In this document: positions 3,007-29,523 of the stretch, piece after piece
Numbering within the stretch: position 1 is the stretch's first letter
How the letters are laid out: each line of letters starts with the position of its first letter
From: Fluviicola sp.
GTDB taxonomy: Bacteria > Bacteroidota > Bacteroidia > Flavobacteriales_D > Crocinitomicaceae
Assembly: GCF_039596395.1 (NCBI RefSeq)
Contig: NZ_JBCNJT010000002.1
Span: forward strand, 930,001 to 994,000
Direction: 5' to 3'
DNA: 64,000 nucleotides
The notes under the pieces: generated by a model
Told to the model about the DNA's origin: nothing
The model's input: the letters and a program-made list of their open reading frames with translations, nothing else
The model's database searches: none
Program-made: the position numbers and the translations under genes

Positions 3007-3025
3007 TAAAGCATTTTTACAGAAG

Positions 3026-3033
3026 CAAAGGTA
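3026..3033 (-). promoter_or_regulatory. Candidate -7 box (TACCTTTG) for ispG
   Basis: The minus strand reads TACCTTTG, an exact match to the Bacteroidota -7 consensus TAnnTTTG, 19 nt from the ispG ATG. No good -33 TTTG is visible at the usual spacing. Confidence 0.5.
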
Positions 3034-3044
3034 CGGAATGAATT

Positions 3045-3347
3045 TTACTGATGAATCTCTTGCACAAGCATTTCGATGAGATGTGCGGCTTCTTTCTTTA
3101 AATAATAGTTGCCTTCAAAATCCCTGTAGTCGGAATAAACCAGATCGGCATGTATCAATTCTTTAATATGTTTTGAAATAGTTGATTTGTTGAGTGTTGT
3201 AATTCCCTGAAAAGTGTCATTGGTTGCAATTCTGTTTTCGAAAAGATATTTTAAAATCGTAATTCTTGCTGGATGCCCTAAGGCCTTTGCAATTTGGGCT
3301 AATTGCAGAGTTTGGTTTGAATAAGGATAGATTTTAGTTGTTCCCAT
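3045..3347 (-). CDS. ArsR-like winged-helix transcriptional regulator
   Basis: A 100-residue single-domain winged helix. Residues 18-37 resemble the ArsR opening (IAKALGHPARITILKYL), the recognition helix is STISKHIKEL (55-64), and the wing is around SDYRDFEGNYYLKKE. It contains no cysteine, which rules out a classical thiolate metal site, so the inducer is unknown. The region just upstream holds three palindromes (3364-3374, 3411-3428, 3447-3464) that are candidate operators for autoregulation. It lies 38 nt upstream of ispG in the same direction, but ispG has its own promoter-like box, so co-regulation is only possible. Confidence 0.88.
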   Translation of the reverse strand: MGTTKIYPYSNQTLQLAQIAKALGHPARITILKYLFENRIATNDTFQGITTLNKSTISKHIKELIHADLVYSDYRDFEGNYYLKKEAAHLIEMLVQEIHQ

Positions 3348-3363
3348 AATTTATCGTTTCTTA

Positions 3364-3464
3364 CTTAATTTAAGAAAAAAGTTGATTCGAAACAAAATTT
3401 CCTCGCCTCGGTTTGCCATTTGGCAAACAGGCAAATTGGCATCTTGGCAAATTCGCGAATTTGC
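3364..3464. promoter_or_regulatory. Palindrome cluster upstream of the ArsR-like gene, candidate operators
   Basis: Three perfect inverted repeats: CTTAATTTAAG (3364-3374), an 18-bp GTTTGCCA-TT-TGGCAAAC (3411-3428), and an 18-bp GCAAATTCG/CGAATTTGC (3447-3464). The two 18-bp palindromes are 36 bp apart centre to centre and share the half-motif GGCAAAY; another GCAAATTGGC lies between them. They sit 17-117 nt upstream of the regulator start, where operators would be expected. They also lie after the stop at 3521, but there is no T tract to suggest a terminator. Confidence 0.5.
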
Positions 3465-3520
3465 GTAGCTGTGTGAATTTTACGAGGGAATGATTGAGTT
3501 TTTTGATTTAAGAGAAGACA

Positions 3521-3919
3521 CTATCGAATGATTTTCCAGATCCCTTTAAACTGCACTTCCTCCCTTCCGGGTTGCAACTCGGCCATTCCAAATACCGAAA
3601 GGAACAAATTATTGCAGCCTTTGCAGGAAATAAGTTCATAGCGGGCATCCATGTTCCAGAGAATGTACTTTCTCAGATTCGAATGCACACTACTCGTTTC
3701 GTCTTTGATATTCACGATTCGTTTTTCAACCAATTCATCAATCAGCTGCGGACCATACACATCTGCAAGCCCTTCTACCAATTTCCCCGATTGATAAATC
3801 CGAATGGGTAATCGAATATCCGAACCGCAATCCGGACAGGTACATGAAATAATTCCGCCATTCAGGAAGTAATCAAAAGAAAACGTGGCGTATCCGGCTA
3901 GATTCTGGTTTGAAAGCAT
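3521..3919 (-). CDS. Hypothetical protein with two Cys pairs (possible zinc ribbon)
   Basis: 132 residues, family not recognised. A first knuckle CTCPDCG (C26, C28, C31) and a second CKGC (C99, C102) could form a zinc site across a 67-residue middle that carries charged helical sequence (IDELVEKRIVNIKDE). There is no signal peptide or membrane segment, so it is probably cytoplasmic. It follows the lipoprotein gene by only 4 nt, so the two are likely cotranscribed. Metal binding is inference from cysteine spacing only. Confidence 0.75.
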   Translation of the reverse strand: MLSNQNLAGYATFSFDYFLNGGIISCTCPDCGSDIRLPIRIYQSGKLVEGLADVYGPQLIDELVEKRIVNIKDETSSVHSNLRKYILWNMDARYELISCKGCNNLFLSVFGMAELQPGREEVQFKGIWKIIR

Positions 3920-3923
3920 GAAA

Positions 3924-4349
3924 TTACTTGTCTCCGATTAAATGATAACTATAGCTTTCACCTAGCGGGCCGGGCTGACAAGTGTCGTCAGTGTATGCGA
4001 ACTCGAAGTGATGATCATTTGTAAAACTGCCGATCTCAACAGAATCGCAGAAGAGTATTTTTCCCGTTTCCGTAACTTTAAACTCCTGGTAAGTGCTGTC
4101 GCGCCATAAGAACTTAAGTGTATTCGACGTGCTTCCAAGCATTACCTGGCCGGTATACGTAAAGGTTGTATCTTCAGTGATGCCACTCATTTGCCAATAG
4201 GTGGAATGCCACAAAATGGAATAATTGCCCGTATATTTTTCCCGGTAATCTACTGTTGGTGATTCAATTGTGGGTTCTACCTTTTTCTTGGAACAATTAA
4301 CTGCAAAAAGGGCCGCGAATGAAAGAATGATGATGGATGATCGGTGCAT
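3924..4349 (-). CDS. Small lipoprotein, unknown function
   Basis: 141 residues beginning with a signal peptide whose hydrophobic core (IIILSFAALFAV) runs into NC-SKKK, giving a lipidated cysteine at C19. The mature part is small and mostly predicted beta, with many aromatic and Thr residues and a C-terminal CQPGPLGESYSYHL, a lipocalin-like or beta-barrel-like look that is not diagnostic. It is the first gene of a pair with the Cys-pair protein (4-nt gap). Lipidation is well supported; the function is unknown. Confidence 0.8.
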   Translation of the reverse strand: MHRSSIIILSFAALFAVNCSKKKVEPTIESPTVDYREKYTGNYSILWHSTYWQMSGITEDTTFTYTGQVMLGSTSNTLKFLWRDSTYQEFKVTETGKILFCDSVEIGSFTNDHHFEFAYTDDTCQPGPLGESYSYHLIGDK

Positions 4350-4401
4350 AAGATTGAATATTTATACCCGAAAGCTAAAAAATTAATGACAATTAAAAAA
4401 A

Positions 4402-5307
4402 TCAAACGCTTGTTTTTTTGGTGTAATGCACATTTCCGCAGCAGTGTTTGAATTTTTTACCGCTGTTACAGAAGCACGGATCATTTCTTCCAATGACTTT
4501 TGCTCTCCTGGAAAGGTTCCGGTCGGACATGTGTTGATTGAAAATTTTCTCCAGCAAGGCATAAAGTTCCGGGTGTTTTTCTTCCAGTAATTTCGGGCGT
4601 TCGAAGAAATACTCACTGATCACGGAAAAGAACTCCGCACGATTGGTTCCGCCATAAGGATTAATGTCCGACTTTCCGGCGTATATCCGCTCGATTTCTT
4701 TGTTCATCAAGTTGATCCAGGGAAGTGCATATTGTTTGTTCATCAACACTTTCGGAAGTCCGTCAACTTCACCGTCTGTTTTGTCAATCAGGTGCACGAA
4801 TTCATGAATGGCGGTATTCTGTTTGTCCGATTCGTTTTTAAATCCCAGTCTCAGCGCTTCTTTCGAAAGGATCATAATGCCTTCCATGCTTTGATTGCCG
4901 ACCATTCCCAGGATACGCCGCTCGGATTCTCCTTCAAATTCATAATTTTCATTGAACATGGCCGGATAGAGCAGGACTTCCCGGATATTCGTGTATTTCC
5001 AGGAATCGAAGCCGAAAATCGGGATCACTGCGCTGGAAGCAACCAGTAACTTATCCTTTAAACTCACATCTGTTTTGATCCCGGTAATCCGGCAATTGAG
5101 CAAAAATTCCTGCACTTTGAATTCAAAACGGGTTTTTTCTTCAGCGTCCAAAGAGTTGTAAAATGCGACTTCCTGTACCAGGATTTCTCTCCACTGCAGC
5201 GGGAATGTTTCACGTGGGACTTTCCACTTTGGATTTGCAGCTTTGTTGTAGGAAACCCATCCGAATCCGACGAGCAGGATAATGAAGATGAAAGCAATAA
5301 TGACCAT
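4402..5307 (-). CDS. MtfA-type zinc peptidase (M90) with C-terminal SEC-C motif
   Basis: 301 residues. An N-terminal membrane anchor (about 2-18) precedes an M90/MtfA metallopeptidase domain whose zinc motif is H168-E169-F-V-H172 in AIHEFVHLIDKTDG. The C-terminal 20 or so residues form a SEC-C zinc-binding motif (NDPCFCNSGKKFKHCCG), known from SecA and other proteins as a small metal-binding module. E. coli MtfA (about 265 residues) binds the Mlc repressor and has peptidase activity, but lacks this tail. The N-terminal anchor and SEC-C tail suggest a membrane-bound enzyme with an extra docking or metal module; partner unknown. It diverges from the MmcQ/YjbR gene 63 nt away. Confidence 0.9.
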   Translation of the reverse strand: MVIIAFIFIILLVGFGWVSYNKAANPKWKVPRETFPLQWREILVQEVAFYNSLDAEEKTRFEFKVQEFLLNCRITGIKTDVSLKDKLLVASSAVIPIFGFDSWKYTNIREVLLYPAMFNENYEFEGESERRILGMVGNQSMEGIMILSKEALRLGFKNESDKQNTAIHEFVHLIDKTDGEVDGLPKVLMNKQYALPWINLMNKEIERIYAGKSDINPYGGTNRAEFFSVISEYFFERPKLLEEKHPELYALLEKIFNQHMSDRNLSRRAKVIGRNDPCFCNSGKKFKHCCGNVHYTKKTSV

Positions 5308-5370
5308 ATCAGAATAATAAAATTAATTCAGAACTATCTCTAAAAGTATCAATTTTACTACCTTTCCACC

Positions 5371-5724
5371 ATGCATTTCGACGAATTGATCCATTTTTGT
5401 TTTCAGCTTCCCGGAGCTACGGAAACATTTCCCTTTGATAAACGCACACTGGTAATCAAGGTACAAAACAAGATGTTTGCTTTGGTAGATGTGGAAGATC
5501 CTACGGGAATTAATTTAAAATGTGATCCGGAAAAAGCCATTGAACTGCGTGAGCGTTACGACGGGATTCAACCGGGTTACCACATGAGCAAAAAACATTG
5601 GAATACCGTTTCACTCGAAGGATTGGTGGATGACTCGCTCATAAAAGAACTGATCGTACATTCTTACGATTTAGTGGTTTCGTCGTTGCCGAAAAAATTA
5701 CAGGATGAGCTTAAGAATAGATAA
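5371..5724 (+). CDS. MmcQ/YjbR family protein
   Basis: 117 residues covering the whole MmcQ/YjbR fold, with the conserved TFPFDKRTLVIKVQNKMFALV stretch split by turns and HMSKKHWNTVSL near the middle. The family has a CyaY-like fold and is often annotated as DNA-binding, though its role is poorly defined. It is the first gene of a rightward group; its stop overlaps the S4-protein start by 20 nt, so the two are translationally linked. A near match to the -7 box (TACCTTTC, 5359-5366) ends only 4 nt before the ATG, implying a very short leader. Confidence 0.92.
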   Translation: MHFDELIHFCFQLPGATETFPFDKRTLVIKVQNKMFALVDVEDPTGINLKCDPEKAIELRERYDGIQPGYHMSKKHWNTVSLEGLVDDSLIKELIVHSYDLVVSSLPKKLQDELKNR

Positions 5725-6100
5725 ATACGTGTGGTTTGTGCGCCTTGCAAAAACCCGGACATTGGCCACAGAACTCGTTCAGCGGAACAAGATCAAGTTG
5801 AACGATATGCCCGTGAAACCTTCAAAGGAAGTAAAGATCGGTGATACGGTTTCCATTATCAAAAACAACGCAACTTTCAGCTACAAGATCAAAGATTTAC
5901 TGGATCGGAGAGTGGGAGCGAAACTCGTTGCGGATTACCTGATCGATATTACGGATCCGCTGGAACTGGAAAAATTCAAAACATACCAGGCGGCACAAAG
6001 TGTTTACCGGGAGTATGGAACAGGCCGTCCGTCGCGTAAAGACCGCGATAACCTGGATTCATTTTTCGAATGGCTGGAAGAGGATGATGACGAAGATTAA
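5705..6100 (+). CDS. S4-domain RNA-binding protein, Hsp15-like
   Basis: 131 residues with an N-terminal S4 domain (about 3-60): LRIDKYVWFVRLAKTRTLA followed by VQRNKIKLNDMPVKPSKEVKIGD in shorter blocks, the alpha-L RNA-binding motif. The C-terminus is very acidic (EWLEEDDDED). E. coli Hsp15 (HslR) binds 50S subunits with stalled nascent chains and helps recycle them; this protein has the same size and layout, so a ribosome-recycling role is likely but inferred. It overlaps the MmcQ/YjbR gene by 20 nt and is followed 29 nt later by the carbamoyltransferase. Confidence 0.9.
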   Translation: MSLRIDKYVWFVRLAKTRTLATELVQRNKIKLNDMPVKPSKEVKIGDTVSIIKNNATFSYKIKDLLDRRVGAKLVADYLIDITDPLELEKFKTYQAAQSVYREYGTGRPSRKDRDNLDSFFEWLEEDDDED

Positions 6101-6129
6101 AATTCACTAACTACCGTAAACCGCTATTC

Positions 6130-7830
6130 ATGTCAAAACCCATTTACGTCCTGGGAACAGGACTTTCGCACAATGGTTCTGCAGTGTTGTTGAAAGACGG
6201 CGTTATTTGTGTGGCCATTGAAAAAGAACGCATTACCCGCATCAAGCACGATGGCGGAAACGATTCGGATGCTATTCAGTATTGCCTGGATGCGGAAGGA
6301 ATTTCACTCGAAGATGTGAAACTGGTTGTTCAAACGGCCAATTTCGAAATTCCGGACCGGGAAAGGTTTCACGGAAAAAGAGTGTTTGCCGGAAATGAAA
6401 AACCCGAATTGGTAAGTATTTCACATCATTTGGCACATGCTTACAGCGCGGCTGGGACGTGTGAGTTTGATGCATGCGTTGTCATGGTGATTGATGGTTG
6501 CGGAAGTCCTTATCAACAGTGCATGGATGTTTCACAGGGAACGCTGTTTCCGGCGAATATTTCCAGACTTTCCGGAACAGGAATGTGGTGCGAAAAAGAC
6601 AGTTTTTACCTATTCGACGGGCAAAAAATGACCCCGCTTTTAAAAGATTTCAGCCCGGTTGAAACTCCGGCTCAGGACCAATTGAAACTTCCGGTAACTT
6701 CCCATTCCATCGGTGGATTTTATGCTGCGATCAGTCACTATGTCTTCGGAAATATGGACGATGTGGGGAAATTGATGGGGCTTGCTCCCTATGGGAAAGC
6801 AGGCCTGATTGGGCAGGAAGCTTTTGATTTCAAGGACGGATCTTTGCTGGTGCGGAACGAATGGCGGGAAGTGCTGAACATGCCTTCAAGCGGGTATGCT
6901 TTTTTCAGAGAACATTTTCAATACTATGCCGATGTGGCTTTTTGGGCACAGCAGGAAGTGGAAAAAGCCGTTTTTTGGTGTTTTAAAGACCGTTTAACGC
7001 GGTTTCCGCATAAAAATGTGTGTTATAGCGGCGGTGTTGCTTTAAATGCCGTAGCGAACGCTAAATTGTTAAACGAGCAAGTCGTCGGTAATTTCTATAT
7101 CGAACCGGCTGCCGGAGATAACGGTCTGGCTCTGGGTTGCGCATATTACGGCTGGTTGGAAGTATTGAAAAAACAAAAGGTAAAACACAACGCAAGCACC
7201 TGTTTCGGGAAAAGCTATGCGAAAGAGGAAATACAAAAAGCGCTGGAAGTTTTACCGGAGAATTATATCCTTCAGGAATTGCAACCGGAGGACTTGGTGC
7301 AACTTACGGCAAAGAAACTGGCGGTTGGAAAAACAATTGGCTGGTTCCAGAATCAGTGTGAGTTCGGGCCGAGAGCGTTGGGACATCGCAGTATTTTGGG
7401 GCATCCCGGAATAGAAGGATTGGGAGACCATATCAATGCCAATATCAAGTTCCGGGAAGATTTTCGGCCTTTTGCGCCGGCTGTGCTTTCCGGATTTGCG
7501 GAGACTTATTTCCGTTCCGGAAGAAAAAGCCCGTACATGATTTTGGTGGATCACACCAAACCCGAATACCTCGAAGTTTTGCGAAATGTTACGCATGTAA
7601 ACGGAACGGCGCGTGTTCAAACTGTCGAGAAGGACTGGAATCCCTTGTTTTACCAATTGATTGAAGCCTTTCAGGAAGAAAGCGGAATAGGAGTGTTGCT
7701 CAATACCAGCTTCAACAAAAAGGGAATGCCCATTGTGGAAACACCGGAACAAGCGCTCAATTTGTTCCTAGAATCCGCTTTGGATGTATTGGTGCTGAAT
7801 CACTTCCTGGTAGAAAAGCCCGACCGGTAA
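6130..7830 (+). CDS. NodU/CmcH-family carbamoyltransferase
   Basis: 566 residues. The N-terminal Kae1-like domain has LGTGLSHNGSAVLL, the metal-binding HHLAHA (H99, H100, H103) and VIDGCGS; the middle has YSGGVALNAVANAKL; and the C-terminal domain has FGPRALGHRSILG, characteristic of NodU, CmcH and TobZ. The family moves a carbamoyl group from carbamoyl phosphate, via carbamoyl-AMP, onto hydroxyls of nodulation factors, antibiotics or sugars. No biosynthetic cluster surrounds it, so the acceptor is unknown; a surface glycan is a guess. It ends 2 nt from the convergent DUF2207 gene. Confidence 0.93.
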   Translation: MSKPIYVLGTGLSHNGSAVLLKDGVICVAIEKERITRIKHDGGNDSDAIQYCLDAEGISLEDVKLVVQTANFEIPDRERFHGKRVFAGNEKPELVSISHHLAHAYSAAGTCEFDACVVMVIDGCGSPYQQCMDVSQGTLFPANISRLSGTGMWCEKDSFYLFDGQKMTPLLKDFSPVETPAQDQLKLPVTSHSIGGFYAAISHYVFGNMDDVGKLMGLAPYGKAGLIGQEAFDFKDGSLLVRNEWREVLNMPSSGYAFFREHFQYYADVAFWAQQEVEKAVFWCFKDRLTRFPHKNVCYSGGVALNAVANAKLLNEQVVGNFYIEPAAGDNGLALGCAYYGWLEVLKKQKVKHNASTCFGKSYAKEEIQKALEVLPENYILQELQPEDLVQLTAKKLAVGKTIGWFQNQCEFGPRALGHRSILGHPGIEGLGDHINANIKFREDFRPFAPAVLSGFAETYFRSGRKSPYMILVDHTKPEYLEVLRNVTHVNGTARVQTVEKDWNPLFYQLIEAFQEESGIGVLLNTSFNKKGMPIVETPEQALNLFLESALDVLVLNHFLVEKPDR

Positions 7831-16713: not shown

Positions 16714-17067
16714 TTATTTATAATCGGAATAGTTTACGATCACCTTCTCAAACAGAGGATTTTCTGCAAGAATCCAGTCGAGCTTCAGGATATCCGGCTG
16801 ATTGTTTTCACCCAGGAGGAAAAAGAAATCCCAAACGGTATCCCGGGAAAGCAGGATGGTTCCTGCTTCGGAATGAAAGTGAAAAATCCACTCATCATTC
16901 TGCCAGATATCCTCCGTTTTTCCTTGTTCGAAACCGTTTTGCAGCAGGATTCGAATGAGATCGATTTCCAGTTGATCTGGTTGATCTTTTCCGTCGAGTT
17001 CGATCAACAGTTCTTCCGAACCATAACCCGGGCGGAGCTTGTACGTGTATTTTGCTGTGGTTTTCAT
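16714..17067 (-). CDS. Conserved hypothetical protein, 117 aa
   Basis: Family not recognised. The start chosen is the ATG at 17067 because it overlaps the stop of the VOC gene as ATGA; an ATG 12 nt upstream is also in frame. The sequence is soluble, without signal peptide or membrane segment, acidic, and mixed alpha/beta, with SEELLIELDGKDQPDQLEID near the middle and aromatic residues at WDFFFLLG. It is the last gene of the lipoprotein/VOC unit. No function proposed. Confidence 0.75.
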   Translation of the reverse strand: MKTTAKYTYKLRPGYGSEELLIELDGKDQPDQLEIDLIRILLQNGFEQGKTEDIWQNDEWIFHFHSEAGTILLSRDTVWDFFFLLGENNQPDILKLDWILAENPLFEKVIVNYSDYK

Positions 17068-17438
17068 TGGATTCTCCACGGTGGATTTAATCTGTTTTCA
17101 CCTGCAAAGAACAAAATCAACTGGTTCCCGTCGGGATCTTTCAGGTATGCCTCGCGCCAGAGCCAGGATTTATCGTTCGGAAGCTCGTCAAATACAATCC
17201 CTTTCTGAACCAGTTCTTCCACCTTTTCATCCAGGCCTTCACATTCAAAATACACGGAAACACCGTGTCCGGTTGGAAGCCGGTCTGTTGCATGTATCGA
17301 AAAAGTGGATGTTCCATCCGGGCATTCGAAACGCGCGTAATGCTCCGATTTGACGATCAGTTTCAATCCCAATGCCTGGTAGAAAGCAATCGACTTTGGA
17401 ATGTCCAATGAAGGAACGGTAATTTGGTTTAAGTTCAT
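17064..17438 (-). CDS. VOC-fold (glyoxalase/bleomycin resistance family) protein
   Basis: 124 residues forming two beta-alpha-beta-beta-beta units: VPSLDIPKSIAFYQALGLKL at the start and AYLKDPDGNQLILF near the end, the usual VOC signature. Members include glyoxalase I, dioxygenases and antibiotic-binding proteins; substrate unknown. Its start overlaps the stop of the upstream lipoprotein gene by 4 nt (ATGA) and its stop overlaps the next start in the same way, so the three genes are one coupled unit. Confidence 0.9.
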   Translation of the reverse strand: MNLNQITVPSLDIPKSIAFYQALGLKLIVKSEHYARFECPDGTSTFSIHATDRLPTGHGVSVYFECEGLDEKVEELVQKGIVFDELPNDKSWLWREAYLKDPDGNQLILFFAGENRLNPPWRIQ

Positions 17439-17918: not shown

Positions 17919-18638
17919 CTATTTCTTTCCCAGATAAATACCAGCGGCCAGTTCTTCTGCTTGCGCTTTGGTAAAGTTTCCGCTGATTTCTGTTTCTCCA
18001 CCTGTAATTACACTATTCACAACCGGGCAGGAAATCACATGATCATTAACGCTGATGGCAATTGCCCTACCGATATTCCTGCGGGTCATCACTTCCCAGT
18101 CATGAGCTCCCTGGTCGTTCATGGTAATCCGGATAACCGGCATTCCATTGTAATCGGCAATAGCCGCTTCAGCATTTTCAATGTGCCTTCCGTCTATGAT
18201 TGCTTTACCGCTTTCAGGGACTTTAATAGCATACAACGCATACATTTTGTGATAGTTTTGTATGTCTTCTTCTCTGTAAGAAAACATAAACCGCAAGTTT
18301 TTGGGGAATTTGGCTTTAACCTCCGGAAGTGCAAGCAAAGTCTCTACCTCCAACAGATCTTCGGCTTTCACGTACCCAATCATAAAATTGGTGTGCGGGC
18401 GAACAAGCGCAGTTAAACCCCTTGGATTTTCTGTGAGGGGTATATTTTCATGCATGGCTACTGTATCCTGTTCATGAACCCACTTGCAGGCCGCGTCCCA
18501 GGAAGGAGCTATTTCAGAAAAGGTGTAAGTCTCAAAAAATTCCAGTTTACCGGGTTTTGCATTTTTCAGGTTTCGTGGTTTGGATCCGGAGCTACAGGAG
18601 AAAATCGCCAGGAGCAGCAGTAAAGGAATACATTTCAT
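17919..18638 (-). CDS. Lipoprotein carrying a detached SecD/SecDF P1 (base and head) domain
   Basis: 239 residues from the ATG at 18638, which gives a lipoprotein signal with C15 in LLAIFSC. Residues 30-140 match the base part of the P1 periplasmic domain of Bacteroidota SecDF (KLEFFETYTFSEI; LLALPEVKAKFPKNLRF; ALYAIKV). Residues 150-235 match the P1 head: IRITMNDQGAHDW, IGRAIAISVNDHVISCPVV, ITGGETEISGNFTKAQAEEL. The SecD membrane segments are absent. In SecDF, P1 binds emerging substrates and moves with proton flow; a lipid-anchored version could bind clients or translocase but cannot be proton-driven. A paralogue lies 480 bp upstream. Domain assignment is strong, role is inference. Confidence 0.85.
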   Translation of the reverse strand: MKCIPLLLLLAIFSCSSGSKPRNLKNAKPGKLEFFETYTFSEIAPSWDAACKWVHEQDTVAMHENIPLTENPRGLTALVRPHTNFMIGYVKAEDLLEVETLLALPEVKAKFPKNLRFMFSYREEDIQNYHKMYALYAIKVPESGKAIIDGRHIENAEAAIADYNGMPVIRITMNDQGAHDWEVMTRRNIGRAIAISVNDHVISCPVVNSVITGGETEISGNFTKAQAEELAAGIYLGKK

Positions 18639-19116
18639 AAGGCCGTTATTTCTGCTAAAAGTACAAATGATTTGATTGGAATTCACAGTTGCCGGAACAC
18701 TATGTAGAATTCCAATCGATTTAAAGAGCAATTGAGCTGTTTCCGAAGGTATTTTATGCCTGTTTACAGTTGTGTGAAGTGAAGTTTGACTTGTACCTCC
18801 GGGTGTGAATGGTTTACTTCTGGCTTTTTTGTTTATAGGTTTTCGTCCTGAATTTATTCCGTAATCCTGCTCTCACTAAGTTTACGGGGCTTTTTGAAGA
18901 TGGGTTGTTAAAAATCAGGGATTTTGTTACAGGAATAACGTTTTGATACTATACCCATACTTGACCTATACATGATCCGTACTTGACCCATACGTGACAA
19001 TCCTTATGTGTTTTTGAGAAAAATTTACTGAACTTTATTTCTCACCCTTGTGAATTTTGAAGGTGTTTTGCTCTGATTTAGTTGAGTGCAATGGAAGCTA
19101 TTTCTTCCTTTTAAAA
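18639..19116. other. 478-bp intergenic region with an 11-bp direct-repeat array
   Basis: No convincing coding sequence on either strand. It separates the two SecD-P1-like lipoprotein genes. It contains four 11-bp direct repeats (18955-18998) with a degenerate fifth unit before them, and otherwise AT-rich sequence. No strong hairpin terminator was found after the stop at 19117. Confidence 0.6.
18944..18998. repeat. 11-bp tandem direct repeats, consensus CCATACTTGAC
   Basis: Units: CCATACTTGAC (18955), CTATACATGAT (18966), CCGTACTTGAC (18977), CCATACGTGAC (18988), and a degenerate unit TGATACTATAC (18944, 7 of 11 matching). The 11-bp period is one helical turn, so each unit faces the same side of the DNA. 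The array lies 306-360 nt upstream of the 18638 start. Confidence 0.75.
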
Positions 19117-19854
19117 TTATTTCTTAGTTGTTTCATACCTTCCGGCATTGATCCGGTCCGAGATTTCCCCAGCCTGTTCCATGGTAAAACTGCTGATATT
19201 CATTTGGTATTTAATTGGCTCACGGATAAGCGGACAACTGACCACTTTTCCTTCCAGGATTACTGCAATGGCTTTGTTTTCATTTTTACGTGTAAATTTT
19301 TCCAGTTTACGCGCTCCATTTTCGGTCATGGTGATATGCAGATCTACCAGTTGGTTTTGGTCACTATCTGCGGGAATCGATTCCAGGATGTCGTGGGAAT
19401 CAACGGGTGCTTTTTGGTTTGCCGGTATCCGGACAGCATAAAGGAAACAGCCTTTAAATGGTGTGGCAGGATCTTCCTGTTCGTATTTGGACCACATAAA
19501 CCTGAGGTCTTTCGGAAAGCGTTTCGCTACTTCGGGAATGGCCAGCATGGAGTCAACTGCCGGAATATCTTCTGTTTTAACCAGTGCGATGGCATGTTCG
19601 TATCCGTTGATCACTACGGATCTCAATCCTTTGACAGTGAACTGTTCCGCCCATTCCTTTTCGGAATCCGTTGATTGAGGACTTGTTTCGGCAGTCCATT
19701 TAAAAGCATCCAGCCATTCTTCCTTTATATCGTCTATATCGTAAGTCTCGAAGAACTGAACCGTAACGGGATTTTCCTTTTTATTTTCAGGCGCTTCCGG
19801 CTCGTTTCCGCAGGAACATATGATCATAAGTAAGAGTAGGGGAAGGTGTTTCAT
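19117..19854 (-). CDS. Second SecD/SecDF P1-domain lipoprotein (paralogue)
   Basis: 245 residues with a lipoprotein signal (HLPLLLLMIICSC; C13 or C15). It is collinear with the 17919-18638 product: FFETYDIDDI, MLAIPEVAKRFPKDLRFMW, FLYAVRIP in the base part, and LHITMTENGARKLEKFTRKN, AIAVILEGKVVSCPLI in the head. The head is more degenerate: the ITGG and GNFT turns of SecD are replaced by IKYQMNISSFT. No membrane segments follow. The 7-nt gap to the upstream lipoprotein gene (start 20386) marks an operon. It probably arose by duplication then divergence; function unknown. Confidence 0.82.
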   Translation of the reverse strand: MKHLPLLLLMIICSCGNEPEAPENKKENPVTVQFFETYDIDDIKEEWLDAFKWTAETSPQSTDSEKEWAEQFTVKGLRSVVINGYEHAIALVKTEDIPAVDSMLAIPEVAKRFPKDLRFMWSKYEQEDPATPFKGCFLYAVRIPANQKAPVDSHDILESIPADSDQNQLVDLHITMTENGARKLEKFTRKNENKAIAVILEGKVVSCPLIREPIKYQMNISSFTMEQAGEISDRINAGRYETTKK

Positions 19855-19861
19855 AGCGTTA

Positions 19862-20386
19862 CTAAATGTACACGTGTTCTACGTATTTGTCCAATTCATT
19901 CCGGGAAATTCCTTTGTAAAAGGTAATCGCCAGGTATTTTTTACCGGGCATACTTTGCAATGCGGTTGTTTTCAGAACCACGAACAATCCATTGCTTGTC
20001 TGAAAATAGGAATAATTTTTCCGGTCAATAAATTTCTTACCATACTTGACTTCCAGAGCCTTTGCTTGATTTTGATAGACTTCTACCGGTTGCATGAACG
20101 AAATACCTACAAAATAGTCATCGTAATATTCTTCCTCGGAATCGTTATCACTTCCCATAAACAAAGGATATCCTTCGAGTTGCGCCTTGATAACCGGCGC
20201 TTCTTTTGTTGCATGTCCCAAAAAGCCATAATAAGGCATATACATCATGCCAAAAAGCTTCTTTGCTTTTTCTACGCGGATAGGAAGTTCAAATTTTCTG
20301 CCGTCAAAAGCAATCTTTGTCGGAGACGGATGGCTGCAGGAGTAAAAAACAGCCAGCAAAATGAGTAAGATGAGGTTGTTTTTCAC
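19862..20386 (-). CDS. Small lipoprotein, unknown function
   Basis: 174 residues with a lipoprotein signal (NLILLILLAVFYSC, C17). The start codon is GTG at 20386. The mature domain is beta-rich with an acidic loop (DNDSEEEYYDDY) and a basic, aromatic C-terminal half. It is the first gene of a pair with the second SecD-P1-like lipoprotein (7 nt apart), so the two are likely made together and may act together at the same membrane. Not recognised as a known family. Confidence 0.78.
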   Translation of the reverse strand: MKNNLILLILLAVFYSCSHPSPTKIAFDGRKFELPIRVEKAKKLFGMMYMPYYGFLGHATKEAPVIKAQLEGYPLFMGSDNDSEEEYYDDYFVGISFMQPVEVYQNQAKALEVKYGKKFIDRKNYSYFQTSNGLFVVLKTTALQSMPGKKYLAITFYKGISRNELDKYVEHVYI

Positions 20387-20418: not shown

Positions 20419-20778
20419 TTACACAATTTCCTGTCCGAAAGTCAGCAAATTATGATCCGGATCGAGGATGGAGAATTCGCGTTGTCCCCAGGGTTTGTCG
20501 GACAAATGCCCGTTGGGGTGAATAGGGGCGCCGCACTCTGAAAAATGGGTGTAAGCCGCATCGATATCATTAGTTCGAATATATACCTGCCCGTAGTTTT
20601 CCTTCGGATCCAGGTCTTTAAACAGGAAAAAGTGGATCTGAATACCTTCTTTTTCGACCATCAGGTAATCCGGAAAATCGCCATTCCCGAAGACATGAAA
20701 GCCGAGGCTATTCACGTAGAAATCGCGGGTAATCTGTTTGTCCCGCATGGGAAGTTTGGGATGTATGGATGTGAACAT
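20419..20778 (-). CDS. VOC-fold protein (bleomycin-resistance-like)
   Basis: 119 residues with a VOC fold: KLPMRDKQITRDFYVNSLGF at the start, then QVYIRTNDIDAAYTHF and FSILDPDHNLLTFGQ at the end. The layout is that of small bleomycin-resistance-like proteins that bind a hydrophobic ligand or a metal as dimers. The ligand is unknown. Directly before the start (7 nt) lies a 7-bp tandem repeat array that must cover or abut the promoter, so expression may depend on repeat number. Confidence 0.88.
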   Translation of the reverse strand: MFTSIHPKLPMRDKQITRDFYVNSLGFHVFGNGDFPDYLMVEKEGIQIHFFLFKDLDPKENYGQVYIRTNDIDAAYTHFSECGAPIHPNGHLSDKPWGQREFSILDPDHNLLTFGQEIV

Positions 20779-23853: not shown

Positions 23854-26800
23854 ATGAAACATTTAATCACTATTTTTTTTGCCTTGGCTTCCTTTGCCAT
23901 ACAGGCGCAGGTTGAACCGGGTAATATTTCTCCCGGAGGTAATTTCGACCGGGTATTTGACCAAAACGGGAATAAATATTCCCTGGATGAAATAAAAATT
24001 ATCCGGAATGGAGATCCGGGCGGGCCGCCAAAAGCCTTAATGCTTTGTTCCAGCGGTTATTTCGATTTGTATTTCGAAACCGGAAGCGGGATGGAAGGGA
24101 ATTCCACTACGGAGATGGCACGAAGAAATCTCATTTGCCAGGTTTTCTCGGATATTTCCAACTTTATTCAAACTCCAAACCCCTCGGTTAAGGTAAATAT
24201 CCTGATTAAAAACATTAATACACTTTTACCTAATTATAATCCCAACACCAACCCGAATCCAGCGGCTACAAGTGGTGTTTTGGGATTAGCATCCGGTTTT
24301 TATGTGCTTCCTTCCAATGCTCCTTCAGCTTCCGGAATTGCGGATAATGAAATTTGGAAAACGATTAATTCCGGGACGGATTCTTATACCAATGTGGTAT
24401 CTCCCTTGATTGCAAGTAATGGAGCAGGATCAAGTTCAGCTGCCTATTTTTATCATGGGATGGCGGCGTTTAACTTCAACAATCCGGCCATAAACTGGCA
24501 TCTTGACCTGTCAAATCCGACTGCCACCGGTTTGTATGACCTGTATACGGTGGCTTTGCACGAAATTACACATGCACTCGGTTTTGCTTCACTGATTTCC
24601 GCCAACGGAACATCCAAGTTCGGAACGGGGTTCAATTATTATTCCCGCTACGATCAATACCTGAAAACCGCCGGAAATGTTCCTTTGATTACCAATTCAG
24701 GCGGATGTTCCATGTACAATTACGGGTTTAATCCTTCGCTGAATACCAATGTAATGGCACCATCTACGTTCAGCTGTTCTACGCAGATCAAGTTTGCGGG
24801 ATCCGTAAACCAGTCTGCATACACACCTGCTACATTTACCAATGAGAGCAGTTTGAGCCACTTGGAAGATTTATGCCACCTTCCAGCTGTTCCAAGTTAT
24901 CCGGACGATCAATATTACGTGATGTCAAATGCAAACGGGCAGGGTTCGGCTTACATGAAAAGGTACCTGAAACCCGAAGAACGAAGTGTATTATGTGACA
25001 TCGGTTATAAAGTAAATACGACCTATGGCTCCAGTGGAAACCTGACTAATTACAATTACGGAGGATCTGTGTGTCCCGGGCTTCAAGTGGTTGGAATTAA
25101 TGACGGAATTGATCCGAACGGGGTCTTTCAACATGTTGTTTCGGTGGGTTCCAGCCTTCCCATTTCCGGTTTTCTTAGCAATGACTTGGGCGGAAATTCT
25201 TATGATTGCTTGCAGGATCTTTACGGAAACGGAACGCCCAGTCCTGCATCTGCGACAAGTTTCAGCTATTTAGCAACCACACCCGGGATTGCTATTGTAA
25301 GGTATGTTCCTGTTTCAGCTTCAGGAGTTCGCGGAAACATTACCTATATCTACATTTATGTGAAATCCGGAAATTGTACTCCATCGAGTTGCAGCTTCCT
25401 GAATAATTCAACTTTTGAGAACTCCACTACCTGTGGACAGATGGATAATATGTCACCGGTTGCTGTTACCAGCAATTGCTGGACGGGTGCGACCAATACG
25501 CCGGATATTTTCCAACGGAATTGTTTGAATCCGTCTAACGGGTTACCTTCCCAGCATACTATTCCAACCGGTAACACTTACACCACTTCCCCCTCGGATA
25601 CCTGGAGCGGAACACCGAATAATACTTTTATCGGGATCGGTAGTTCCGGGGGCTCGGGGACTCCTCACTGGAATGAAGGTACCCAGAGTATGTTGAATTC
25701 TCCGTTGATTGCGGGTCATACCTATGTACTTAGTCTTCGTGCGAAAGTAGCTAATAACCAAGGAACCAGTTTTGGTCCGGTTTTCCCAGCGGGTGCAAGC
25801 GGGCAATTGAGATTCGGAGGAACAGCGTCTGTTCTGGCCCCGATTTCGGGTCCGTTTACGGTTTGGCCAAGCTCAATAACTTCTTTGGGAACGCCTATTT
25901 CTATTGTGAATGACAACGCGTGGCATTTGTTTACACAAACATTTACCTACAACAGCGGTTCAAATTTGAATAATTTCATTTTGATCAACACTTCCAATAT
26001 GAATACGCTAACAGGTCAGCCATATGTTTATTTCTTCATAGATGATGTGAATATCACGGAGGTATTACCAACAACATCTCTCACTTTACCGAATGTGATG
26101 TGTATCAATCAAACGATTTCAGACATGATGCTTTATGCGCCGGTACCGGGTGGTGTTTTTGCCGGAAACGGAGTTTCAGCCAGTGGAAGTACTTATAGCT
26201 TCAGTGCATCTGCTGCCGGAGTTGGAACCCATACGATCAGTTATACTTATACCAATAACAACGGATGCGTGTTAACCATTTACGATGATATTCAAGTTGT
26301 AAATTCAACGTTAACAGCCAGCGCCAGTGCGGCCTCTACCAATGTTTGTACAGGTTCGTCGACTACGCTGACTGCCAATAGTCCCGGAGCGGTTTCCTAT
26401 AACTGGAATCCGGGTAATTTGAGCGGAAATCCTGTAACGGGTCCGGTCAATGCGACGACCACTTATAACCTTACTACCACCAACGCTCAGGGATGTATTG
26501 CAACAGCTTCAGTGAATGTTACAGCTATTCCCCTTCCGGTCATTTCAGTAAATCCCGCCAGCAGTTCTATTTGTTCCGGACAACAGGTTTTACTTACCGC
26601 GAGCGGAGCCAATAATTATACGTGGTCACCGTCAACGGGATTATCAGCTACCACGGGAGCTTCAGTAACGGCTTCACCGACATCTACTATTACCTATACG
26701 GTTAACGGAACATCGACCACTACCGGATGTACCGGCAGTGCTACGAATACCATTACGGTTAATGCCTGCACGGATTGTACCGGGGGAACATTGTTATCTG

Positions 26801-29523
26801 GTAACATCAGTACATCACCGACTGCCGGAACAACTTTAAGAGTTGCCAATAACATTACCATTTCGGCAAACGTTACTTTTACCAATAATGCGGTGAAGAT
26901 TATGCCGGGCGTTACTATTACTGTTGCTTCGAATGCGACGTTGAATATTACCGGATCTCATTTTTATGGTTGTCAGGATATGTGGAACGGAATTGTTGTT
27001 CAGCCGGGCGGAAGAGTGAATATGCAGCCTTATATTGTTTCCTCAACAGTCACAAAAACGCCATTTATCGAAGATGCGGCGGTTGCGGTAGATTTTCTTC
27101 CTGTGACGACTCAGCAAAGTGTTGTGATGCTTCAGGTAAATAATTCGACCTTTAACAGGAATGGGATCGGTATACGGGTGCAGGGTTATGCTTTTGCCAA
27201 TGCTGGAACGATGTTTACAGTAAAGAATAGTTTGTTTACCTGCAGAGATATCGCGTCAACCACTACAAGCTGGCCTTTGACTACTAATTTAAAAGCAGCA
27301 AGCGGAAACAGCAGTGCATTCCTGAACCCTTATATTCCATCCGGATATCCTGTGACAACGTTGAAAGCACCACAAAGCACGACGTTTTCCAACAAGGGAA
27401 TCCAATTAATCAATGTAGGTACTACTACCGGGACTTCTCCGATTACTTACAATTCGGTGACAATCGGATCCTCTGTATTGGCTGAATACAATGTCTTTGA
27501 CTATTTGAAAACGGGTATTCATGCCAATAACTCGAATGTCAAGGTAATCAATACCACGATGCAGTTTACAGCAGCAATTACCAATTCGATGGTTAATGCC
27601 GGAAGTTCTCCGAGTATCGGAACCGGAGTATTTGCTGAAAACACCAGTGGTGGCAGGTTCAAAATGGATATTGCCGGTACGTCCGCTCAACCTAACGGAT
27701 TTTATGGATTATACTATGGCCTGGACGTTAAGAAGTATAACGACCTGCAGGTTGTTTATACTACAATCAGAAGTTACAGACCGCCGCATCCACCGGCATC
27801 CGGTCAGAATAACGGTAAATACGGTATTTATGCAGACCATGCCAAGTTTGATAATTTCGGAATTGCGAACAATACGATCTATAACATTGAGAAGGGAGTT
27901 TCCATCGTTCCGTCTTCGGTTCCGGTTGGCGGGCAAGTAGCAACTATTAAGGTTACGAACAACACTTTTGATAAGGATTTGGGTTCAACGGTTGGTATTA
28001 ATACCCAGGATGCAATCATTATCCAGGAATCGGTTGGAATTATGAACAGCGGAGGATTGATCTGGGTGAACAATAACAGTATTAAGGCTACCAGAAGAGC
28101 GATTACCCTGGACAACTGGAAGCGTTTGAATATACAGGTCAATGCCAATTTGATCATGCTTGGCGGAGATGGTACGTTTTTGCTGACCCCGAGTTACGGT
28201 ATCAAATTAAACCAGTGTACTCAGGGTAGTTCGGCAAGTCAGATTTATGACAATACGATCAACGGTTTTGTAGGATCAAGCACTAATTTTTATGGGATTG
28301 CCCTGGATCTTTCCATTGGAAACGATATCCGATGCAACAGCGTCAACACAGGTTATCATGGATTATATTTCAGTGGAAACTGTAGCCCGACCAAGACTTT
28401 CAATAACAGTATGGAAAACCTGAAATACGGATTTGTACTGGATAATAACGGAATTATCGGTCAGCAGGGATCCAATACAGTGCCGGCAGATAACCGTTGG
28501 TTGGGAACTAACTGGAGCACTACCGGAACTGCTAACGGCAGCTTTAAGAATGCTTCTCTGAATACAAGTAGCACCCTGAACTCAAAAATGTACGTTAGAA
28601 CCCTCACAGGAGCTTATTCTCCGTTAAATTCAACCACTAATTTTGCCGGAACAATCTGGTATTCAACAACGACACCTGCGAGTCTTTTTGCGGTAACAAG
28701 TCCGCCGAACTATACTGCCTGTACCGTAGGCTCCACACCTAGCGGAAGCAGTTTTTTCCCGCAGGTGGATATCGTTGCAGGAATGGAAACAGCTGTAGAT
28801 TTGGCAAACATTCTCGACGGAACTGACCCGGGAGCAGTAGTGAAGAACCAAAGTTACCGTTACCTGTACGAAGATCCTTCATTGATTTCTGCTTCCGGTA
28901 AACTAAATACTTTTTATTCCGATCTTAATCCGACGAATACAGGTGCTTTCCAGGCGGTAGAGAAAATGGTTAATCTGGGTGATTATGTAACTTCCACCCA
29001 GGTCATTTCGGCTGTTATTCCTGAAAATCTCCTGGAAGAAAGCTTCAAACGGTATTACGAGGCATTGCTAAATTATGAAAACGGGGTGTTTACAGAGGAT
29101 GACAAGCGTGCTATTGTTGATATAGCGCAAGGATGTCCTGCTTTGCAGGGAGGTGTCGTATACCTGGCTGGTGCATTGTACAATGAAGTTTTCAGAGAAG
29201 CGGAAGTCTTTACACAGGTTTGCCCGTCTTATTTTGATAAGAGCGCACCTTCTTCCGGATTGGAACTGTCTGATACTCCGAACTATGGGTTATACCCTGT
29301 TCCGAATGGGGGAACTTTCTATCTGACAGGGAAGGTTTCAAACGGCGACAGAATGCGTATTCTTTCCATGGACGGGAAAATTGTTTGCGAGCAGGAATTA
29401 GCTGAAACAGAAGCAGAGACGGAAATCCATACAAAACTAAGTACCGGAACGTATTTGGTGGTACTTCAGAACAAATCCGGAATGGAACTTTATCGAAACA
29501 GAATCGTTATCTTGCAGAAATGA
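23854..29523 (+). CDS. Very large T9SS-secreted protein: leishmanolysin-like zincin plus beta-helix
   Basis: 1889 residues. A signal peptide (19) is followed by a zinc-protease-like domain with H236-E-I-T-H240-ALGF; position 246, where metzincins have the third ligand, is Ser, but H336 in SLSHLEDL followed by VLCDIGY fits the distant third His of leishmanolysin-type (M8) enzymes. Then come a jelly-roll-like segment (about 500-650), two or three Ig/PKD-like domains rich in Thr and Asn (about 740-970), a right-handed parallel beta-helix (about 975-1600) and a C-terminal type A sorting domain (LYPVPNGGTFYL, MDGKIV, GTYLVVLQNK) for T9SS export and surface anchoring. Its stop overlaps the next gene as ATGA. 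Likely a surface protease or adhesin; activity unproven. Confidence 0.88.
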   Translation: MKHLITIFFALASFAIQAQVEPGNISPGGNFDRVFDQNGNKYSLDEIKIIRNGDPGGPPKALMLCSSGYFDLYFETGSGMEGNSTTEMARRNLICQVFSDISNFIQTPNPSVKVNILIKNINTLLPNYNPNTNPNPAATSGVLGLASGFYVLPSNAPSASGIADNEIWKTINSGTDSYTNVVSPLIASNGAGSSSAAYFYHGMAAFNFNNPAINWHLDLSNPTATGLYDLYTVALHEITHALGFASLISANGTSKFGTGFNYYSRYDQYLKTAGNVPLITNSGGCSMYNYGFNPSLNTNVMAPSTFSCSTQIKFAGSVNQSAYTPATFTNESSLSHLEDLCHLPAVPSYPDDQYYVMSNANGQGSAYMKRYLKPEERSVLCDIGYKVNTTYGSSGNLTNYNYGGSVCPGLQVVGINDGIDPNGVFQHVVSVGSSLPISGFLSNDLGGNSYDCLQDLYGNGTPSPASATSFSYLATTPGIAIVRYVPVSASGVRGNITYIYIYVKSGNCTPSSCSFLNNSTFENSTTCGQMDNMSPVAVTSNCWTGATNTPDIFQRNCLNPSNGLPSQHTIPTGNTYTTSPSDTWSGTPNNTFIGIGSSGGSGTPHWNEGTQSMLNSPLIAGHTYVLSLRAKVANNQGTSFGPVFPAGASGQLRFGGTASVLAPISGPFTVWPSSITSLGTPISIVNDNAWHLFTQTFTYNSGSNLNNFILINTSNMNTLTGQPYVYFFIDDVNITEVLPTTSLTLPNVMCINQTISDMMLYAPVPGGVFAGNGVSASGSTYSFSASAAGVGTHTISYTYTNNNGCVLTIYDDIQVVNSTLTASASAASTNVCTGSSTTLTANSPGAVSYNWNPGNLSGNPVTGPVNATTTYNLTTTNAQGCIATASVNVTAIPLPVISVNPASSSICSGQQVLLTASGANNYTWSPSTGLSATTGASVTASPTSTITYTVNGTSTTTGCTGSATNTITVNACTDCTGGTLLSGNISTSPTAGTTLRVANNITISANVTFTNNAVKIMPGVTITVASNATLNITGSHFYGCQDMWNGIVVQPGGRVNMQPYIVSSTVTKTPFIEDAAVAVDFLPVTTQQSVVMLQVNNSTFNRNGIGIRVQGYAFANAGTMFTVKNSLFTCRDIASTTTSWPLTTNLKAASGNSSAFLNPYIPSGYPVTTLKAPQSTTFSNKGIQLINVGTTTGTSPITYNSVTIGSSVLAEYNVFDYLKTGIHANNSNVKVINTTMQFTAAITNSMVNAGSSPSIGTGVFAENTSGGRFKMDIAGTSAQPNGFYGLYYGLDVKKYNDLQVVYTTIRSYRPPHPPASGQNNGKYGIYADHAKFDNFGIANNTIYNIEKGVSIVPSSVPVGGQVATIKVTNNTFDKDLGSTVGINTQDAIIIQESVGIMNSGGLIWVNNNSIKATRRAITLDNWKRLNIQVNANLIMLGGDGTFLLTPSYGIKLNQCTQGSSASQIYDNTINGFVGSSTNFYGIALDLSIGNDIRCNSVNTGYHGLYFSGNCSPTKTFNNSMENLKYGFVLDNNGIIGQQGSNTVPADNRWLGTNWSTTGTANGSFKNASLNTSSTLNSKMYVRTLTGAYSPLNSTTNFAGTIWYSTTTPASLFAVTSPPNYTACTVGSTPSGSSFFPQVDIVAGMETAVDLANILDGTDPGAVVKNQSYRYLYEDPSLISASGKLNTFYSDLNPTNTGAFQAVEKMVNLGDYVTSTQVISAVIPENLLEESFKRYYEALLNYENGVFTEDDKRAIVDIAQGCPALQGGVVYLAGALYNEVFREAEVFTQVCPSYFDKSAPSSGLELSDTPNYGLYPVPNGGTFYLTGKVSNGDRMRILSMDGKIVCEQELAETEAETEIHTKLSTGTYLVVLQNKSGMELYRNRIVILQK

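Follow-up and report, generated by a model that had tools for sequence, protein, structure and literature searches.

Predicted lipoproteins of Fluviicola carry the SecDF P1 head without its membrane motor

Introduction

The membrane part of SecDF and the base of its periplasmic P1 domain couple proton flow to movement of the P1 head, and the structures 3aqo, 3aqp, 5xan and 5yhf serve as SecD/SecDF P1 references. How the head handles exported chains, and whether it needs the proton motor to do so, is to our knowledge unsettled. Here we describe two predicted lipoproteins, P0001 and P0002, that are related to SecDF P1 and are encoded in a 64,000-nucleotide (nt) stretch of Fluviicola sp. (hereafter the window; assembly GCF_039596395.1, contig NZ_JBCNJT010000002.1, positions 930,001 to 994,000). 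A preliminary description of the window had read them as free P1 copies placed on lipid anchors.

In one report, P1 is thought to bind polypeptides, and AlphaFold placed the chaperone SurA on the P1 head (PMC9987972); another describes the head as critical in translocation (PMC9508474). Searches on surface grooves yielded nothing about P1 residues. Searches of the open-licence PubMed Central literature listed no account of SecDF P1 proteins that stand alone or sit on a lipid anchor. Labels like 'SecDF P1 head subdomain-containing protein' may already be in use in database annotation. P0001 and P0002 share with SecDF P1 (PF22599, PF21760, NF009585) the head sequence and predicted fold, the LEFxETY strand and a Bacteroidota-specific alpha/beta part. 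Unlike SecDF, they have neither membrane helices nor a proton-transport domain, most of the base is lost, a predicted lipobox replaces the first transmembrane helix (TM1), and the alanine of the SAP motif has become cysteine.

Results

Relationship to the P1 region of SecDF

Both open reading frames were verified on the minus strand at the coordinates first given for them (17919-18638 and 19117-19854). The Pfam profile SecDF_P1_head (PF22599; curated cut-off 27 bits) matched P0001 with an E value of 1.4e-24 (86.6 bits) and P0002 with 6.6e-13 (49 bits), both exceeding the cut-off. The top NCBIfam model for both proteins was the SecDF model NF009585 (P0001, 2.7e-36; P0002, 1.1e-22), which matched over the P1 region only; the scores of 125 and 79.9 bits were far under its cut-off of 1037, so that neither protein qualifies as a translocase subunit. 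A PDB sequence search at E ≤ 1 returned four distinct sequences per protein, every one of them SecD or SecDF. AlphaFold2 (AF2) models built from an input alignment of 8 rows had predicted local distance difference test (pLDDT) values of 84.4 for P0001 and 79.3 for P0002. When these were compared with the PDB by Foldseek, ranks 1 to 9 were SecD/SecDF chains and rank 10 was a holo-translocon chain for both models, with E values among the top ten reaching 9.2e-4 (P0001) and 1.8e-3 (P0002). The following match was an acid-sensing channel for P0001 (E 0.37) and an Spt16-Pob3N chain for P0002 (E 0.056, probability 0.98).

Core head positions are common to the lipoproteins and SecDF. P0001 is 39% identical to the SecDF of its own genome and 37% identical to P0002. 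Taken together, the profiles, the PDB sequence matches and the fold comparison strongly support the descent of both proteins from P1 of a SecDF of the Bacteroidota type, and the relationship that had been proposed is upheld. A different fold or a better-matching family was ruled out by the Pfam, NCBIfam, PDB and Foldseek results; the weak extra Pfam matches to FloA (P0001, 0.061) and RedAm-like_C (P0002, 0.031) lie under their cut-offs. Relatives on plasmids comprised 26 records, all below 60% identity; among the 10 listed, three were annotated under the match, as secD/secDF.

Parts kept and lost relative to SecDF

The genome has three PF22599 matches, namely the two lipoproteins and a SecDF encoded as one uninterrupted frame of 1015 codons on a different contig. 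In an alignment with this SecDF, the lipoproteins begin at the LEF(F/Y)ETY strand and end at the last head helix. They retain the Bacteroidota-specific alpha/beta part and the head; what they lack are the base strands on the TM1 side, which precede LEFxETY, and the C-terminal strand that in SecDF runs into TM2. A Pfam scan of P0001 and P0002 gave no match to PF21760 (SecD_1st, the N-terminal P1 part), although L054 and L063, two longer free copies from elsewhere, did match it. Of the base-plus-head layout originally proposed, the head therefore stands and the base mostly does not, and by sequence the correct description is a P1 head with a Bacteroidota-specific part and most of the base missing. 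After the signal, no further membrane-spanning stretch was seen by eye in either protein and the profile matches were limited to P1, which bears out the reported absence of SecD membrane helices. No membrane part is present to carry a proton-driven conformational cycle.

The loss of the ITGG and GNFT turns in P0002 was likewise verified. Loss of GG and GNF is limited to the three innermost P0002-type members, as both turns are still present in the copy L050 of that group. Position 204 is alanine in 38 of 38 SecDF rows and cysteine in 10 of the 11 locus-type lipoprotein rows that have a letter there. A C51-C204 disulfide as a strict pair was rejected: C51 is present in 8 of 12 rows and C204 in 10 of 11, and C204 stands without C51 in three.

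Lipid anchor and sidedness

Read by eye, the N-termini of P0001 and P0002 consist of a short n-region and a leucine-rich stretch followed by a cysteine (IFSC and ICSC). This cysteine is nearly invariant across an alignment of 11 rows, and the two neighbouring proteins P0003 and P0004 also start with a signal-like stretch ending in cysteine. By this reading both P1 proteins have a lipobox signal, and their lipid anchoring is likely, lipidation itself being predicted. According to a report on Bacteroidota surface lipoproteins, export to the surface goes with at least two acidic residues within the six after the cysteine (PMC12578637). By eye, P0001 has none and P0002 has two, the only one of 12 compared N-termini to do so. 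As to sidedness, P0001 would by this rule carry no surface-export signal and P0002 would barely qualify.

A genus locus under purifying selection

Of 14 Fluviicola genomes, eight have a free P1 gene flanked by metG and xseA; in a ninth, G002, the gene is split across two contig ends, and one of these contigs runs on to xseA. The search for relatives in other Bacteroidota thus found them at this locus in 9 of 14 genus genomes, and copies elsewhere as well. Three genomes (G000, G012 and G007) keep both the P0001 and the P0002 type. In G010, metG adjoins xseA directly, which is an empty site; in G009 and G011, xseA was not near metG within the stretch fetched.

Pairwise ratios of nonsynonymous to synonymous substitution rates (dN/dS) were 0.13 to 0.25 for same-type pairs with dS below 1.8, including 0.19 for the close pair G008/G002 (dS 0.34, 159 codons); in many other lipoprotein pairs dS was saturated. 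These ratios strongly support purifying selection on the metG-xseA lipoproteins. The refuting case of a broken secD was also considered; the uninterrupted SecDF frame elsewhere and the conserved locus under purifying selection refute it. Between G000 and G012, dN was 0.24 and 0.23 for the lipoproteins and 0.065 for the SecDF head region. The dN of P0001 was 0.38 versus 0.24 for P0004 in the comparison with G007, 0.405 versus 0.30 for P0004 with G013, and 0.40 versus 0.23 for P0003 with G003. As judged from these sequence comparisons, the P1 lipoprotein genes are selected yet quickly evolving.

Free P1 copies in the family and the phylum

Counted by hand, 32 of 200 family genomes have one or more free P1-type frames; genomes with a single match were not inspected individually, and the figure includes G520, whose copy has in-frame stops, and the weak head-only matches of G059, G411 and G466. 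A match in G513 (L080), Skp-like by eye, was set aside, and the short second matches of G055 and G495 were read as pieces of a split SecDF. In a phylum sample, 8 of 296 genomes (our own included) have more than one PF22599 match, counted by eye, and the extra frames in the other seven are of 143 to 348 amino acids.

Ten free copies (L054, L055, L057 and L063 to L069) lie 79 to 753 nt upstream of secDF on the same strand; nine of these copies come from the family, and the tenth, L057, from a different family of the same order. Like P0001 and P0002 they consist of P1 without the motor, and the six that look intact have an N-terminal signal or anchor: by eye, a TM1-type anchor in L054, L063 and L067 and a lipobox in L055, L057 and L066. 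Unlike P0001 and P0002 they sit beside secDF, L054 and L063 keep the PF21760 part, L063 by eye keeps TM2 as well, and four look truncated (L064, L065, L068 and L069). Together these forms look like a series that may lead from partial tandem duplication through a change of anchor to a dispersed lipoprotein.

P1-like heads also occur in other settings. In G004, of the same genus, a predicted lipoprotein (L052:6101-6952) joins a SecDF P1 head to MORN_2 repeats in two stretches; by eye, a similar repeat also precedes the P1 part, as though the domain had been inserted into a repeat lipoprotein. A secreted-looking protein of G115 (L100:1354-2196) combines the head with DUF4440. The free copy with in-frame stops in G520 (L062) is lipoprotein-like, and since one stop also interrupts the SecDF match of that genome, sequence quality and decay are indistinguishable there. 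Proteins of about 150 to 175 amino acids, secreted or lipoprotein-like and made up mainly of a P1-head-like domain, were seen at L101 (G132), L103 (G111) and L073 to L077 (the Pfam scan of small proteins did not include L077). Those at L073 to L076, L101 and L103 share with P0001 and P0002 a PF22599-type head outside a translocase, slightly below the Pfam cut-off in L075; unlike them, they are small and have no Bacteroidota-specific part. They are probably separate recruitments and lie outside the tree described below.

Preservation of the head beside secDF

For seven of the ten secDF-adjacent copies, the base and head regions (about 150 columns each) were compared with the SecDF of the same genome. 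Across 703 SecDF pairs, head-minus-base identity had a mean of -0.03 and a maximum of +0.12. In five of the seven free/SecDF pairs it was +0.18 to +0.52 (G042, 0.52; G087, 0.38; G496, 0.31; G401, 0.23; G037, 0.18), the values for G087 and G037 being rough. In these comparisons the head region is the part that most copies preserve, whether by conversion, selection or both.

One case, G042 (L054; free copy 5945-7336, SecDF 2629-5754), looks like conversion. Here, the free copy and its own SecDF are 95.7% identical in nucleotides over 580 base pairs (bp) that include the head, and 69.6% identical in the base; the head region of the free copy is 97% identical to its own SecDF, and its base groups with that of the G401 free copy (support 100/99). 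Probable gene conversion of the head with the adjacent secDF, over a tract of 580 bp, is the simplest explanation. An assembly duplication is unlikely, since the tract is 95.7% and not 100% identical.

Several origins of free copies

The LEF-to-head tree contained 71 rows (33 free copies and 38 SecDFs); seven open reading frames with fewer than 110 aligned positions, and loci L001 to L012 and L051, which repeat others, are excluded from the head tree. The 12 metG-xseA rows form one group that is not strongly supported (80/88), with the G004 copy outside. Within this group, a P0001 group (99/89) and a P0002 group that takes in the single copy of G001 (100/97) both have good support. The proposal that P0001 and P0002 have split roles is plausible in that they fall into these separate groups; the turn loss said to accompany the split is confined to the three innermost P0002-type members.

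On the LEF-to-head region, descent of all free copies from one origin was rejected (approximately unbiased test, p 2.7e-44), with at least 7 changes. Because head conversion could mimic multiple origins, a base-region tree of 47 rows was built. In this tree the G516 copy, the G496 copy and the pair of G042 and G401 copies stood at three separate places, each beside SecDFs of its own lineage, although the G042/G401 pair joined its lineage at 98/74 only. The placement of the long-branch free copies (L057, L059, L060, L066, L071 and L072) is unreliable. Several origins of free P1 copies are thus supported by the two trees.

Gene layout of the lipoprotein cluster

Features of the cluster are listed in Table 1. 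P0003 lies 7 nt upstream of P0002 and P0004 lies 13 nt downstream of P0001, with 478 nt between the two pairs; these short spacings fit the arrangement in two operons that had been proposed. Neither P0003 nor P0004 matched any Pfam or NCBIfam family at E ≤ 1. A Bacteroidota promoter consensus gave 13 matches where 12.9 were expected and was uninformative. Two genes of the glyoxalase superfamily (VOC) flank the cluster, one on each side (17064-17438 and 20419-20778, minus strand). Elsewhere in the window, positions 23854-29523 of the plus strand encode a secreted-looking protein of 1889 amino acids with an Ig_7 match, a metalloprotease match below its cut-off and a C-terminus that by eye resembles a type IX secretion signal.

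Table 1. Features of the lipoprotein cluster, in window coordinates (aa, amino acids)
Feature	Coordinates	Strand	Evidence
P0004, 156-aa predicted lipoprotein, no family match, not P1-like, probable operon mate of P0001	17435..17905	minus	relatives in G007 and G013
P0001, 239-aa predicted lipoprotein with SecDF P1 head and Bacteroidota-specific P1 part	17919..18638	minus	profile matches, fold prediction, same-locus relatives
P0001 P1 head, residues 145-233	17940..18206	minus	PF22599 match, 1.4e-24
P0001 Cys204 codon, SCP where SecDF has SAP (Ala)	18027..18029	minus	SecDF versus locus-type lipoprotein rows
P0001 LEFFETY strand and Bacteroidota-specific alpha/beta part, residues 30-140	18219..18551	minus	alignment with own SecDF; AF2 secondary structure
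P0001 signal peptide with lipobox, predicted lipid Cys at residue 15	18594..18638	minus	sequence reading; Cys conservation
P0002, predicted lipoprotein of 245 aa, the second P1 copy, lacking ITGG/GNFT	19117..19854	minus	profile matches, fold prediction
P0002 P1 head, residues 151-238	19141..19404	minus	PF22599 match, 6.6e-13
P0002 signal peptide with lipobox, predicted lipid Cys at residue 15	19810..19854	minus	sequence reading
P0003, 174-aa predicted lipoprotein, no family match, not P1-like, probable operon mate of P0002	19862..20386	minus	relative in G003

Discussion

The best explanation of these proteins, which we hold tentatively, is a tethered and passive binding module, derived from SecDF P1, without a motor and kept for its head. 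A head that lacks its motor is able to hold or recruit but not to pull, and for this reason a tethered module is favoured. Such a protein would be lipidated and face the periplasm, and would use the surface through which the head of SecDF makes contact with chains under export or with their chaperones; it would hold or hand over its clients without proton flow. In P0002, where both glycine turns are missing, the partner or client has probably changed. The preliminary description suggested putative roles as a holdase, in binding the translocase or in lipoprotein capture; to this the present comparisons add that free copies tend to keep the head region and not the base.

Several observations weigh against this explanation. 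A shared fold is no proof of shared binding. Whole-model template modelling (TM) scores to SecDF were just 0.31 to 0.41, with root-mean-square deviations mostly above 10 Å; such values might be expected of models with an absent base and hinged parts, but they mean that the fold search backs the sequence result and does not stand alone. No free copy was found in 4 of the 14 genus genomes (G006, G009, G010 and G011), and G004 has solely a divergent copy elsewhere, carrying MORN_2 repeats, so the function must be dispensable. The G012 paralogue pair has a dN/dS of 0.36. The dN of P0001 is about 2 to 15 times that of the SecDF head (G012, G008, G007, G003 and G013), and P0001 diverges 1.4 to 1.8 times faster than neighbouring lipoproteins in the three comparable genome pairs, so that a rate like theirs was not upheld. 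As for preservation of the head, two of the seven secDF-adjacent pairs show no clear head bias (G516, -0.01; G415, +0.06) and lie within the range of SecDF pairs, and base identity was only 0.15 in G037 and 0.24 in G087.

A free head might instead compete with SecDF or regulate it, by binding the partners of the SecDF head (the SecYEG exit, SurA or SecDF itself) and thereby tuning or inhibiting SecDF. The probable conversion that keeps a head like that of its own SecDF suits shared partners, and ten free copies are encoded upstream of secDF in the same orientation; the Fluviicola copies, however, are unlinked to secDF, and at 39% identity P0001 shows no close matching to its own SecDF. We regard such a role as unlikely. 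It also seems rather unlikely that the P1 head was recruited to some unrelated task, serving there as a stable periplasmic domain. Heads joined to MORN_2 repeats (L052) or DUF4440 (L100), the existence of small head-only proteins, the replacement of Ala204 by cysteine in 10 of 11 locus-type lipoproteins and the fast divergence would all agree with such a recruitment, whereas the core head positions common with SecDF and the preferential preservation of the head region in 5 of 7 pairs beside secDF argue against it.

Two further explanations are very improbable. The lipoproteins could be decoys or immunity proteins that shield the SecDF head from a toxin or phage using it, as a duplicated domain on lipid anchors in variable neighbourhoods, a copy with MORN_2 repeats and a divergence that in three genome pairs exceeds that of nearby lipoproteins by a factor of 1.4 to 1.8 might suggest; P0001 to P0004 had no PADLOC-DB match at E ≤ 1, no toxin family was found among the window proteins scanned, and dN/dS is well under 1. 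Alternatively, partial secDF duplications may be repeatedly born and lost, with the lipoproteins as survivors without a selected function. The four truncated-looking copies beside secDF (L064, L065, L068 and L069) and the in-frame stops of the free copy in G520 have the look of such debris. In the genus, by contrast, the position is conserved in 9 of 14 genomes, the lipobox is kept and same-type pairs have dN/dS of 0.13 to 0.25; purifying selection disfavours this origin for P0001 and P0002.

The tethered passive binding module could be part of something broader, which we consider possible but doubtful: that Bacteroidota repeatedly excise the polypeptide-gripping head of SecDF and put it to use as an export factor that is tethered to the membrane and has no motor. 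Near secDF, the head could be kept in step by gene conversion while the base decays, and the copies would form an uncatalogued layer of Sec accessories, in which P0001 and P0002 would be a split pair.

P1 heads that occur in nature with neither base nor motor, kept by selection and apparently of repeated origin, offer a ready-made experiment. If it is true that these copies bind exported chains or chaperones, the grip of the head would be separable from the motor. The finding also draws attention to a class of Bacteroidota lipoproteins that has received little study and that annotation might mistake for translocase fragments, and as further copies have apparently arisen several times, the P1 head may be useful without its motor.

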